IMG/VR virus record: IMGVR_UViG_3300048589_000533 | Span: 1 to 21,421 of that record | Origin: a virus | Length of the DNA: 21,421 nucleotides | Direction: 5' to 3' (one strand) | In this document: piece by piece, positions 1,881 through 6,346 of the stretch | Layout of the letters: each line of letters starts with the position of its first letter | Position numbering within the stretch: the first letter of the stretch is position 1 | Made by a program: the position numbers and the translations under genes | The notes under the pieces: generated by a model | Seen by the model: the letters and a program-made list of their open reading frames with translations, nothing else | What the model was told of the DNA's origin: nothing | Databases searched by the model: none

Positions 1881-1909
1881 ATAATAGGGGCGCTATTTGG
1901 ATGTGTCAA
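1881..1909 (-). promoter_or_regulatory. Leftward early promoter PL
   Basis: Read on the minus strand, the sequence contains TTGACA (1909-1904), a 17-bp spacer and TATTAT (1886-1881), a near-perfect sigma-70 promoter. It lies directly upstream of the leftward operon that starts at 1842. The -10 is overlapped by one operator-like palindrome (1883-1897). The upstream edge of the -35 is overlapped by another (1908-1922). Repressor binding there would block it. Confidence 0.85.
1883..1897. promoter_or_regulatory. Operator OL, promoter-proximal copy
   Basis: AATAG-GGGCG-CTATT is a perfect inverted repeat with 5-bp arms and a 5-bp centre. It overlaps the PL -10. Its centre is 25 bp from the next copy, and near-identical sites lie at PR. 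It is inferred to bind the repressor, the Cro-like protein, or both. Confidence 0.75.
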
Positions 1910-1924
1910 TAGGGCCGCTAGTAT
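1897..1924 (+). promoter_or_regulatory. Possible weak rightward promoter at OL
   Basis: TTGGAT (1897-1902), a 16-bp spacer and TAGTAT (1919-1924) read rightwards towards the small gene at 2009. The -10 hexamer is the same as that of PR and overlaps the distal OL site, so it would be repressed together with PL. The -35 is poor (3 of 6), so this is only a candidate. Confidence 0.25.
1908..1922. promoter_or_regulatory. Operator OL, promoter-distal copy
   Basis: AATAG-GGCCG-CTAGT is the same 15-bp pattern with one arm mismatch. It overlaps the upstream end of the PL -35. The sequence running out of it to the right (GCTAGTATT) is identical to that at the PR -10. Confidence 0.7.
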
Positions 1925-1972
1925 TTTCTGGGACAATCTTGCGGAACCACTCATTCGAGGGGCCCAGAAACG

Positions 1973-1994
1973 AAAAAGCCCGCGCGCTGCGGGC
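1973..1994 (-). terminator. Intrinsic terminator of the leftward lysogenic cassette
   Basis: On the minus strand GCCCGC, loop AGCGC, GCGGGC is followed directly by five Ts. This is a textbook rho-independent terminator. It lies after the leftward cassette that begins with the repressor, and just before PL. It therefore separates the lysogenic transcript from the lytic leftward operon. Confidence 0.85.
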
Positions 1995-2008: not shown

Positions 2009-2236
2009 ATGGATGTGACCAACGCCAGGCGGCTGATCTTCCAGGCGATTGAGCCCGGCGGGCGCGAGCTGCGCGTCTATGCCGACGGCACGAGCAGCGG
2101 CTTCGCTGAAGGAACCCGCGTGATCAACCACTTCATGGCCGACCGCAACGCGGCGATCGGCCTACTGATAAAGGCGCGTGATCAGGGTCTTATCGCCCAC
2201 GAGAAGGCCGCCGAGATCCTTGCGATCTGGCTTTGA
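2009..2236 (+). CDS. Small hypothetical protein, rightward, in the immunity region (75 aa)
   Basis: An AGGAG lies six bases before the ATG at 2009, which is a strong start signal. The codons are G/C-ending like the rest of the phage. The protein MDVTNARRLIFQAIEPGGRE... looks compact: a short beta-rich start (RELRVYADGTSSGF) and two helices (AAIGLLIKARDQ and HEKAAEILAIWL). It runs rightwards, against its neighbours. Its last 75 bases overlap the tail of the leftward gene at 2162-2446. No family is recognised. A weak promoter over the OL operators (1897-1924) could drive it, through DNA that also encodes the leftward terminator hairpin. Confidence 0.6.
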   Translation: MDVTNARRLIFQAIEPGGRELRVYADGTSSGFAEGTRVINHFMADRNAAIGLLIKARDQGLIAHEKAAEILAIWL

Positions 2237-2446
2237 GCAGGCGGCAGCGCCGAAGGCTTCGGCAACTGCTTGCGCCGCTGGCGTGAAGTAGTAGTGCATG
2301 CCGCCGTCGTCATCTACCCGCGAGAAAATGGCTGCATCGCCGCTGCGCGACGCGATGTCAGCCCAATACACGGCGTCCGCGAAGCGCCTCGAAGTCAGCA
2401 GCGCCTGTGTCGGGTCATCGATGTAGAGGTAGTGCCAGCTGCTCAT
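2162..2446 (-). CDS. Hypothetical cytosolic protein, last gene of the lysogenic cassette (94 aa)
   Basis: It starts at the ATG at 2446, which overlaps the HNH gene stop as ATGA. The sequence MSSWHYLYIDDPTQALLTSR... has alternating beta and alpha character, with aromatic-rich strands (HYLYID, MHYYF). It ends LGGLLVGDKTLITRLYQ. It has no signal peptide, unlike the three genes upstream. I do not know its function. Because it is coupled to an exported nuclease, an immunity or regulatory partner is conceivable, but nothing in the sequence proves this. Its 3' end overlaps the convergent gene at 2009-2236. Confidence 0.65.
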   Translation of the reverse strand: MSSWHYLYIDDPTQALLTSRRFADAVYWADIASRSGDAAIFSRVDDDGGMHYYFTPAAQAVAEAFGAAACSKPDRKDLGGLLVGDKTLITRLYQ

Positions 2447-2736
2447 CGCCCGCTGCTCCTGCACTCCATCACATCGCGCTTGGTCTTGCGCTTGTGGTCT
2501 TCGATCGTGAGCCACTGCAGGTTGCCGGCGCGGTCGGCGCCGCCCGCGCAGATGGCGATGCGGTGGTCCGCCTGGTAGCCTGGGCACTTGCCGCGCGTCG
2601 CGCCCGTCGAAGGGCAGGGGTTCTCGCGCTGGAACTCGGCACGCACTGCCTGGCTGCGCTTTGCGTCGGCGGCATAGGCCGGCAGCGCCAGCGCGCTAAG
2701 CGCCAGCACCGTCAGGCTCGTCGAAGGAACAGCCAA
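2443..2736 (-). CDS. Exported HNH nuclease
   Basis: The C-terminal part carries an HNH (beta-beta-alpha-metal) nuclease core. It has CPSTGATRGKCPGYQADHR with Asp57-His58, then GGADRAGNLQWLT with Asn72, then His81 in EDHKRKTK. Four cysteines (41, 51, 63, 92) could make disulphides or bind zinc. The N terminus (SLTVLALSALALPAYA, cut after about residue 22) looks like a Sec signal, so the enzyme should act in the periplasm or outside. Small exported proteins of this HNH type are known in proteobacteria as non-specific or poorly studied nucleases. The start is a TTG at 2736 inside the previous gene; a GTG at 2709 would leave only a 13-residue signal. The next gene overlaps by ATGA. It belongs to the cassette behind the repressor. 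Confidence 0.8.
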   Translation of the reverse strand: MAVPSTSLTVLALSALALPAYAADAKRSQAVRAEFQRENPCPSTGATRGKCPGYQADHRIAICAGGADRAGNLQWLTIEDHKRKTKRDVMECRSSGR

Positions 2737-2999
2737 AGCACCGCCAGTGGTCCGAGTAGGCCAATCACCGCAAGCGCGATTTCGCCCCCGCTCATGTCGC
2801 GCGGTTCAGACTGGCGAGCCAGCCTGTTGCGCATGCGCACTACGCAGCCGTTGACGTTGTCAGGCGATGCGCGCTCGCAGTAGCTCTGGATGCTCTCTGT
2901 CTCCAGTTCATCTATGTAGCGGTTCTGAGCCACTGCAGAGGAAGAAATGCACGCCCCTGCGACGGCAAGCGCCAGCGGAACCAGGAAGCTTCCATTCAT
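2712..2999 (-). CDS. Exported or membrane-anchored small protein (95 aa)
   Basis: Residues 1-24 form a signal peptide (SFLVPLALAVAGACISSSAVA), probably cut before QNRYIDEL. A polar domain with two cysteines follows (IQSYCERASPDNVNGCVVRM). The last 25 residues hold a transmembrane helix (IALAVIGLLGPLAVLWLFL) with a basic end (RRA). So the small domain would face the periplasm and be tethered to the inner membrane. No family is recognised. It lies ten bases after the 58-aa secreted protein and overlaps the exported HNH nuclease, suggesting that the three are made together. Confidence 0.65.
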   Translation of the reverse strand: MNGSFLVPLALAVAGACISSSAVAQNRYIDELETESIQSYCERASPDNVNGCVVRMRNRLARQSEPRDMSGGEIALAVIGLLGPLAVLWLFLRRA

Positions 3000-3009
3000 G
3001 GCCGCCAGG

Positions 3010-3186
3010 CTACCTGCCGATGCTGAGAGGGCAAAGGCTAACGCCGACGTTCAGCACGGTGCCGTTGTCGTACCTGCACATCTGGCTGCCGTTCTCGTAC
3101 CACTGGGCCACCAGGAAGCTCATCAGCGCATGAGCCGGACCAACGAACAGTGCGGTCAGCGCCAGCGCGGCGAACAGTCGTTTCAT
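3010..3186 (-). CDS. Small secreted protein (58 aa)
   Basis: The start at 3186 is set by AAGGAG five bases upstream. An upstream extension of the frame lacks such a site. Residues 1-20 are a signal peptide (MKRLFAALALTALFVGPAHA). The mature part of about 38 residues reads FLVAQWYENGSQMCRYDNG, then TVLNVGVSLCPLSIGR, with two cysteines that may form one disulphide. I have an impression of similar short WYENG/CPLSI-type secreted proteins in proteobacterial genomes, but no function comes to mind. It is the first gene after the repressor, 169 bases downstream. Confidence 0.7.
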   Translation of the reverse strand: MKRLFAALALTALFVGPAHALMSFLVAQWYENGSQMCRYDNGTVLNVGVSLCPLSIGR

Positions 3187-3355: not shown

Positions 3356-3835
3356 TCAGGCGGCCTTCGGGTTTGCTGAGCCGCGTGCCGCGCCCTTTGT
3401 TCCTGCCGGGCTCGGGCCTGCAGACATTGGTGGCAGCGCCTCCATATCAAGGTGTGACCTGATTGCGTTCTCGATCCTTCGGATCGTTGTGGCGTCAGCC
3501 TCGCCCATCTTGTCCAGAACCTCCATGGACAACACGTTGCGACGGTCGAAGTGGAACAGCTGGTCGGCCAGGCGCGGGCTGAAATCGGCAACTCGGCAGT
3601 ACATCCCGACCGCGAAGCCGACGGCTGCCTTCAGGCTGAGCGCAGTCTCGCCGTTGAGGAAGAACCCGACCGCACCCTGGCTGCCGATGCCGTACTTCTC
3701 GCCAAACGCTGCCTGAGTGCCGGCGCCGTCCTCAGCGCGACGAGATGCGGTTTCTTCCCAGATCGCCTTGAGGCGAGATGCCTCCCGGACGTTTTCCTCG
3801 GTGACCTTGCCTTGCTTTGGGCCGCGCTCTTCCAC
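3356..3835 (-). CDS. Xre-family phage repressor without peptidase domain
   Basis: Likely the lysogeny (CI-type) repressor. Near the N terminus, ASRLKAIWEET, AAFGEKYGIGSQGAVGFFLN and LSLKAAVGFAVGM fit an Xre helix-turn-helix of the kind found in phage repressors. The remaining roughly 75 residues (from VADFSPRLADQLF) have no S24/LexA-like domain; the tail is Ala/Pro/Lys-rich. Repressors of this type are often longer and self-cleaving, so induction here may work differently. I chose the GTG at 3835 because the longer frame from the ATG at 3916 would put both OR palindromes and the PR promoter inside the gene. GTG has only a weak GGGA about ten bases upstream, so the start is uncertain. It is transcribed away from the Cro-like gene and heads the leftward cassette. 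Confidence 0.75.
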   Translation of the reverse strand: MEERGPKQGKVTEENVREASRLKAIWEETASRRAEDGAGTQAAFGEKYGIGSQGAVGFFLNGETALSLKAAVGFAVGMYCRVADFSPRLADQLFHFDRRNVLSMEVLDKMGEADATTIRRIENAIRSHLDMEALPPMSAGPSPAGTKGAARGSANPKAA

Positions 3836-3868: not shown

Positions 3869-3874
3869 CAAATA
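3869..3874 (-). promoter_or_regulatory. Candidate repressor-maintenance promoter -10
   Basis: Read leftwards, TATTTG could be the -10 of a promoter for the repressor. It gives a leader of roughly 25-30 bases before the GTG at 3835. I see no good -35, as is common for promoters that need activation by the bound repressor. It overlaps the edge of the OR-distal palindrome. Confidence 0.3.
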
Positions 3875-3885
3875 GCGCCGCTGTT
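3871..3885. promoter_or_regulatory. Operator OR, promoter-distal copy
   Basis: AATAG-CGCCG-CTGTT is the 15-bp operator pattern with one arm mismatch. It overlaps the first bases of the PR -35 and the possible -10 of the repressor promoter. Its centre is 25 bp from the next copy, exactly as at OL. Confidence 0.7.
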
Positions 3886-3912
3886 GACGAAACAAACTAG
3901 GGGCGCTAGTAT
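3884..3912 (+). promoter_or_regulatory. Rightward early promoter PR
   Basis: TTGACG (3884-3889), a 17-bp spacer and TAGTAT (3907-3912) lie just before the Cro-like gene. Transcription should start about 3919-3922, at or within a few bases of the ATG at 3922. The operator layout over -10 and -35 mirrors that at PL. Confidence 0.85.
3896..3910. promoter_or_regulatory. Operator OR, promoter-proximal copy
   Basis: ACTAG-GGGCG-CTAGT is a perfect inverted repeat with the same 5-bp centre as the OL-proximal site. It overlaps the PR -10, so binding here should shut off the rightward operon. Confidence 0.75.
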
Positions 3913-3921
3913 TCATGCCCT

Positions 3922-4170
3922 ATGAACACTGTCCTTGCTATCCGCCAGCGCTTGGGCCTCACGCAGGCCGCCCTGGCGGAATTGCTCGGCTGCACGCAGG
4001 GCAACGTCTCGTTCTACGAGAAGGGTCAGACCGTACCGCCGCCGGTGGCGGGGAGGCTGATCGAGGTTGCGCGTGAGCGGAATCACAGCTATCTCACATT
4101 CGACCACGTGTACGGCGCAGCGGAGTTGCCGCCGCCCACCACCGAGTCCGCCGAGGCCAAGGCGGCATGA
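3922..4170 (+). CDS. Cro-like helix-turn-helix regulator (82 aa)
   Basis: The first half is a Cro/C1-type helix-turn-helix: LGLTQAALAELLGCTQGNVS (residues 11-30), then FYEKGQTVPP and a third helix around GRLIEVARE. The last 30 residues are Pro/Ala/Glu-rich and probably loose. As the first gene after PR, divergent from the repressor, it is the natural Cro equivalent, expected to compete at the shared palindromes. No Shine-Dalgarno lies before the ATG at 3922, and PR should start transcription at about that base. The mRNA is therefore probably leaderless. The HTH begins so close to this ATG that a later start is unlikely. It overlaps the next gene by ATGA. Confidence 0.85.
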   Translation: MNTVLAIRQRLGLTQAALAELLGCTQGNVSFYEKGQTVPPPVAGRLIEVARERNHSYLTFDHVYGAAELPPPTTESAEAKAA

Positions 4171-5660: not shown

Positions 5661-6346
5661 GCTACGAACCGGCGCCAGGCTCGACAGCCTATCGCGCGAT
5701 CGCGCACCTGCAGTCGCTGCCGCCCGGCGCGGAGCTGATGACGTCGGCGCTGGCCGAGGCGATCGGCAGCGAAGGCAAGAACATCGTGCCGCCGCTCGAG
5801 GTGGCGCTGGCCAGCGGCCTGATCTTCAAGCGCCAGCGCGACACGCACGTGCGCAGCCCGATGTGGTGGTCGCTGACCGACCACGGCGCGCGTCCGAAGG
5901 TGGACATCAGGCAGCCGGCGGTGCCGGTGGCCAGCGCGAAGGATTCAACCGCTGGGGACGCCCAGCCATTCAGGGGCGACGAAGCGGCTCATGTCGCCCA
6001 ACAGGAAAGCCCGGGACCGGTGGCGGCGTCCACGCCGATGAATGGGCGGCCACCGGCCCGCAACGGACACGACGAACCGGAAGGGGCGGCGGCAATAGCT
6101 GGTGGGCCGGCAACGGCCAAGGAAACCGCCCAACGGGGCGCCACAAGCATCGAGCCGCACTCGGTTGCGAAGGGCGCGGGCGACGACGCCAAGCCAGCCG
6201 TAGGAGCCGCCGCCCCCGATGGCTTCCGCTGCGCGCTGTGGTCGAACGGCGCGCTGCAGCTCGAGCGCGGCGCGGCCACGCTGGCCGTGCTCACCGCCGA
6301 CGAAACCCGCGCGCTGGTGGCGTACCTGGAAAGGCTGGCGGAATGA
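5657..6346 (+). CDS. Winged-helix-like phage protein with long linker (229 aa)
   Basis: Residues 1-75 (AYRAIAHLQSLPPGAELMTS, EAIGSEGKNIVPPLEVALAS, then MWWSLTDHG) look like a winged helix-turn-helix. Residues about 80-185 form a low-complexity Ala/Pro/Gly linker. Residues 190-229 (FRCALWSNGALQLERGAATL, then TADETRALVAYLERLAE) form a small separate domain. This two-domain form is, as I recall it, frequent in phage early regions and probably binds DNA, but its role is not known to me. It is coupled by ATGA overlaps to both neighbours, including the methyltransferase. Confidence 0.7.
   Translation: MSYEPAPGSTAYRAIAHLQSLPPGAELMTSALAEAIGSEGKNIVPPLEVALASGLIFKRQRDTHVRSPMWWSLTDHGARPKVDIRQPAVPVASAKDSTAGDAQPFRGDEAAHVAQQESPGPVAASTPMNGRPPARNGHDEPEGAAAIAGGPATAKETAQRGATSIEPHSVAKGAGDDAKPAVGAAAPDGFRCALWSNGALQLERGAATLAVLTADETRALVAYLERLAE

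Follow-up and report, generated by a model that had tools for sequence, protein, structure and literature searches.

Phage lambda carries rexAB between its repressor gene and its left operator, on the repressor strand, and rexAB is a membrane-depolarising abortive system. Exclusion genes were also described on the repressor transcript of Fc02 (PMC9936078). Inner-membrane exclusion expressed in the lysogen is established for P22 SieA which, like similar inner-membrane exclusion proteins, acts at DNA entry; SieA blocks the conduit and works without a nuclease (PMC10883804). Nuclease cutting of DNA during injection is established for SNIPE, an anchored single chain with GIY-YIG and DUF4041 domains (PMC13190303). 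Finally, exported DNases are encoded by integrated elements, such as Campylobacter CJIE1 Dns, Vibrio IdeA and Bacillus YokF; they are not described there as genes of a repressor operon (PMC4774983).

The window studied here is a whole IMG/VR virus record of 21,421 bases. Portal, terminase and major head genes were recognised with PHROG. The portal protein shares about 35% identity with its counterparts in Burkholderia phages BcepIL02 and BcepMigl, and the structural region had no DNA-level match among 50,697 phage records. Behind its repressor gene, the window carries a cassette centred on a small HNH nuclease (Table 1). Like lambda rexAB, these accessory genes share the strand of the repressor, would lie in the interval from the repressor gene to the left operator, and should be expressed in the lysogen; they differ from rexAB in that a nuclease with exported partners takes the place of the membrane-depolarising abortive system. 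Like SNIPE, the nuclease is predicted to be located in the envelope and may cut DNA at entry, but it is of the HNH type and predicted to be periplasmic, whereas the catalytic part of SNIPE is cytoplasmic (PMC13190303). With SieA the cassette would share an envelope protein that a prophage expresses and that acts when DNA enters, and with CJIE1 Dns, IdeA and YokF an exported DNase made by an integrated element.

The repressor of the window had no match in Pfam or PHROG. Its residues 1-90 are 58% identical to 248-aa proteins found in the repressor position of two other loci (L107 and L108). In L107, the corresponding gene lies opposite a divergent cro-like gene. Clustering also groups the repressor with the repressor-position gene of L061.

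Table 1 Features of the repressor region and of the cassette in the window
Feature	Position	Strand	Basis or remark
cro-like HTH gene	3922..4170	+	divergent from repressor; Pfam HTH_31 5e-9, HTH_3 1.5e-8
Putative right operator/promoter region (OR/PR-like)	3869..3913		promoter scan; repeats shared with 1885-1925
Repressor (cI-like), 159 aa from GTG at 3835	3356..3835	-	frame open to 3916
58-aa exported microprotein (predicted)	3010..3186	-	hydrophobic N-terminus
95-aa protein	2712..2999	-	signal-like N-terminus, short ectodomain, C-terminal transmembrane helix (hydropathy); weak codon score
HNH nuclease, predicted exported, 97 aa (TTG) or 88 aa (GTG at 2709)	2443..2736	-	family alignment, catalytic residues, AlphaFold2, PDB matches
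94-aa cytosolic protein (predicted)	2162..2446	-	own-frame codon score; start overlaps HNH stop
75-aa ORF	2009..2236	+	convergent; covers last 75 bp of 94-aa gene; good codon score
Terminator-like hairpin with T tail, 3' of cassette	1978..1994	-	scan and fold
Putative left operator/promoter region (OL/PL-like)	1881..1925		promoter scan; 10-11-mers common to cI-cro gap
First gene of next leftward operon, 119 aa	1483..1842	-	downstream of PL-like promoter

The earlier note had described four tightly packed or overlapping genes behind the repressor and on its strand. This arrangement was confirmed, and all four reading frames were found on the minus strand where the note had put them (3186-2162). 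The repressor gene is followed by 169 bp and then by the 58-aa gene, itself separated by 10 bp from the 95-aa gene. The junction between the 95-aa and HNH genes is either a 25-bp overlap or a 2-bp gap, depending on whether the latter starts at TTG or at GTG. The HNH and 94-aa genes overlap by 4 bp (ATGA). The assigned frame obtains the best codon score in each of the five minus-strand genes, repressor included, and the 95-aa gene has the weakest of these scores. Third-position GC is 0.68-0.88 in the cassette genes versus 0.91 in those for structural proteins. Whether the 94-aa ORF is a gene is likewise uncertain, since the convergent plus-strand ORF has a better codon score; because the two overlap, one of them is perhaps not real. 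As to the terminator that had been said to close the cassette, a hairpin is indeed present (1994-1978), but the one terminator-like hairpin found compares with 1.7 expected by chance and is weak evidence by itself.

Short repeats are found on both sides of the block. TAGGGGCGCTA, GGCGCTATTTG (inverted) and CGCTAGTATT are common to the repressor-cro gap and to the stretch left of the block. The right region contains GGCGCTATTTG (minus strand, 3879-3869) and TAGGGGCGCTAGTATT (plus strand, 3898-3913), together with a promoter-like site, TTGACG-17-TAGTAT, at 3884-3912 (+). The left region contains TAGGGGCGCTA (1885-1895), GGCGCTATTTG (1889-1899) and CGCTAGTATT (1916-1925), with a leftward promoter-like site, TTGACA-17-TATTAT, at 1909-1881. 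The two promoter-like sites point outward. The pattern GGSGCTANTW, picked after the repeats had been seen, has three matches in the 21,421 bases, confined to the two regions, where 0.12 would be expected. The longest-match test is not significant for this record alone (p = 0.17); the operator argument thus rests on several shared motifs taken jointly. From these motifs, we read the two regions as putative OR/PR and OL/PL. Because operator-like repeats flank both sides, the cassette would occupy the place of rexAB in lambda, between cI and a left operator and on the repressor strand, the operators being deduced from the repeats.

The HNH protein of the window gave weak HNH matches in PHROG and is under the Pfam HNH cut-off. 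Its HNH residues are D57, H58, N72 and H81. The core of the AlphaFold2 model consists of a strand (54-58), a second strand (73-77) and a helix (78-94), in a beta-beta-alpha arrangement with pLDDT values of 95-98. Profile searches matched active HNH enzymes, and the PDB matches were to HNH nucleases. Foldseek ranked Cas8f-HNH, the Gme HNH nicking enzyme, McrA and colicin-type DNases highest, with weak E-values; the lowest, 0.026, came with a probability of 1.00, and probabilities are high for Cas8f-HNH and lower for the others. A beta-beta-alpha-metal core with matching D-H, N and H is shared with the Gme enzyme (4h9d), McrA, Cas8f-HNH, ZRANB3 and the DNases of colicins E7 and E9. By its beta-beta-alpha fold and its catalytic D/H, N and H, the protein belongs to the HNH superfamily, and we infer nuclease activity from these features. 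The enzymes just listed are cytosolic or are toxins that cross membranes, whereas the HNH domain of the cassette stands alone behind a predicted Sec signal and has four cysteines. CJIE1 Dns, IdeA and YokF belong to nuclease families other than this one. Pfam detected neither DUF4041 nor GIY-YIG in the HNH protein and its relatives, which sets them apart from SNIPE.

A profile built from six HNH proteins retrieved 85 relatives in viral contigs, 80 of which were kept, and 23 in genome contigs. Judging from record titles, all 23 genome matches are in phyla with a periplasm. Two cultured strains have such a relative in their genomes, Rhodoferax sp. BLA1 (L084), in which a repressor gene precedes it, and Ideonella livida TBM-1 (L089). 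The family is nearly missing from sequenced named phages, and our literature search found no exported or periplasmic HNH protein in phages. There is no dedicated model for it in NCBIfam or PADLOC; PADLOC gave no match for the protein of the window and matched its relatives only to type IV restriction models, weakly. A Pfam HNH match with E<0.01 was obtained for 41/68 relatives, and the Pfam matches of the family are all of HNH type except for a marginal one to SRCR.

D57, H58, N72, K84, C41 and C51 are invariant in all 68 aligned relatives; H81 is found in 60 of them and C92 in 66. The mature part has exactly four cysteines in 62/68 sequences, and the family has no CxxC pairs. Two disulfides are a plausible arrangement of these cysteines, and zinc binding is possible. 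At least 77 of 89 non-redundant representatives have a strongly hydrophobic N-terminus under a strict hydropathy rule, and several of the remaining 12 also look exported upon inspection. These N-termini, which a simple hydropathy rule classes as Sec signal peptides, and the cysteine pattern make export of the nuclease, as the earlier note had claimed, very probable. The window's own copy has a hydrophobic core and an AYA site but lacks a positive charge in the n-region, so that the case for its export rests more on the family than on the copy itself. Its signal peptide also depends on a TTG or GTG start. With its uncharged N-region and the need for such a start, the signal peptide might have been misread, and the protein would then be a cytosolic HNH enzyme used in restriction, packaging or homing. 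We find this very improbable: N-termini are signal-like in most members, an even number of cysteines outside CxxC pairs is conserved, and in the window the HNH gene is away from the terminase gene. The same features disfavour the identification of the protein as a homing, packaging or restriction HNH enzyme.

Expression in the lysogen, previously proposed from the gene order in this DNA, can now be argued from the position of the HNH gene in many prophages. A same-strand HTH_3 gene is found 359-1868 bp upstream of the HNH gene in 36/68 non-redundant viral records, against a baseline of 7.1% at random positions and strands of the same contigs. This count is a lower bound, as Pfam HTH_3 fails to detect the repressor of the window as well as several more. 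S24-type repressors are found in three further loci (L011, L044 and L052). An HTH gene lies upstream on the opposite strand in 26 records, as cro would. The repressor stop and the HNH start overlap by 4 bp in L017 and L097 and are 1-13 bp apart in L050 and L044; the 4-bp overlaps make transcription of the HNH gene in the lysogen likely. DNA of the repressor promoter is repeated downstream of the HNH gene in at least 11 of 39 loci at p<=0.05, a value that is optimistic, as are those for position, because related loci are treated as independent. The longest exact repeats measure 30 bp (L028) and 23 bp (L052). The mean longest match is 11.9 downstream of the HNH gene; the corresponding means are 9.6 for the early-gene side and 9.2 for random windows, and the early-gene side of the 39 loci showed no excess of such repeats.

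On the HNH tree, one sub-branch adjoins endolysin/holin-like genes (L057, L062, L068, L076 and L078-L081), which suggests a possible second use in lysis. On a lytic reading, the exported nuclease would be freed at lysis and degrade host or competitor DNA or lower viscosity, its place after the repressor being incidental. Such a role at the lytic end is improbable, as the repressor-operon context is dominant and is that of the window itself; mapped on the tree, this context requires 6 changes over 45 rows, and 0/500 shuffles gave a number as low. That some HNH relatives lie in lysis cassettes or next to an integrase gene, and not after a repressor, counts against a repressor-linked role. In L027, L040, L045, L053, L058 and L091, the HNH relative is found beside a tyrosine-integrase-like gene or near lysis genes.

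The partners of the nuclease are less constant than its position. The non-repressor gene directly 5' of the HNH gene encodes a hydrophobic N-terminus in 22/36 cases, versus 13.4% for genes of 45-200 aa taken from the same loci. As proposed for the window, the nuclease thus tends in general to be preceded directly by a membrane or exported partner. The sequences of these partners differ widely between loci. Their Pfam scan recognised no known exclusion family; matches were to Rap1a-type immunity proteins in two cases, to BamE and HIRAN in single cases, and to zinc ribbons and others. The suggestion that the same four-gene set would be found in other prophages did not hold, since only the nuclease and the slot recur. 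No relatives of the 95-aa and 94-aa proteins were detected in the viral contigs searched. The 58-aa protein has 36 relatives there (L109-L144; 55-73% identity), all outside HNH loci, and none was found together with an HNH gene in the other loci examined. This family, with the pattern LVAxWYxNGxxxCRYDNGTVLNxGxxxCPLxI, consists of widespread exported microproteins in early/replication modules of uncultured phages; none was detected in named phages. As far as sequence comparison goes, what is conserved is the nuclease and the slot, not the four-gene set. A slot that accepts many unrelated exported genes could also hold an accessory moron of benefit to the host, apart from competition between mobile elements, and exported DNases are capable of roles such as nucleotide scavenging or biofilm DNA turnover. 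We give this explanation a low probability, as no enrichment in nutrient genes was seen near HNH genes and the majority of matches are on viral contigs.

We tentatively favour, with a little less than even confidence, a periplasmic HNH DNase that would be made in the lysogen, exported by Sec and used to cut incoming DNA, chiefly that of superinfecting phages. The block would be that part of a lambda-like immunity region which stays switched on, with the repressor and accessory genes enclosed between two sets of operators. The Sec pathway would carry the small endonuclease to the periplasm, where disulfides would probably stabilise it. There it would guard the envelope of the lysogen by cutting naked or exposed double-stranded DNA during entry, mainly superinfecting phage DNA. 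The varying small membrane or exported proteins encoded just 5' may place the nuclease at the inner membrane; alternatively, they may stall incoming DNA in the periplasm for cutting. The compartment would prevent self-damage, as the prophage and its packaged progeny would never be naked in the periplasm. In many phages, a conduit crossing the periplasm shields the DNA (PMC10975011), as with the ejection proteins of P22 (PMC10883804), so that a free periplasmic nuclease may miss phage DNA.

Transforming DNA is naked in the periplasm and freely accessible to an exported nuclease. The nuclease may thus degrade DNA taken up by natural transformation, or nearby eDNA, and shield the prophage from recombinational replacement. 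This explanation fits the same anatomy about equally well. Element-encoded DNases (CJIE1 Dns, the CJIE2 and CJIE4 nucleases, YokF and IdeA) reduce transformation ten- to thousand-fold (PMC4774983), and HNH relatives are also carried by two Burkholderiales plasmids. ComEC was found in 11/13 host genomes, but it is near-universal (10/14 control genomes, E. coli included) and therefore does not discriminate between exclusion and transformation blocking. SNIPE, which acts on phage entry, did not affect plasmid transformation, so the two functions are separable (PMC13190303). Transformation blocking alone leaves the recurrent membrane partner unexplained, and we consider it somewhat unlikely as the main function. 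Superinfection exclusion is put slightly ahead, and held loosely, because of the membrane partners and of the position next to the repressor.

A more specific form of superinfection exclusion, which we regard as rather doubtful, would be a modular entry immunity of prophages that works by 'divert and cut'. In the rex position, a single conserved HNH nuclease of the periplasm would be combined with interchangeable small membrane or exported partners, which would stall particular kinds of incoming DNA in the periplasm or keep the nuclease where DNA enters. If true, prophages would be achieving exclusion with a nuclease that acts outside the inner membrane. In a 2024 review of superinfection exclusion, the word nuclease is absent from the main text (PMC11436027), and SNIPE, described in 2026, cuts entering DNA from the cytoplasmic side (PMC13190303). 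Exported nucleases in the repressor operons of many diverse prophages would give mobile elements a second means of policing DNA entry, this one in the periplasm. This raises the question of whether one prophage gene acts against phages, transforming DNA, or both.

Some loci show particular arrangements of the slot. In L004 (5582-5986), L011 (5574-6029) and L037, the genes just 5' of the HNH gene fall into one cluster. In L003, a single ORF of 183 aa (5665-6216) contains hydrophobic segments in frame with the HNH domain and may be a natural fusion of a partner with the nuclease.
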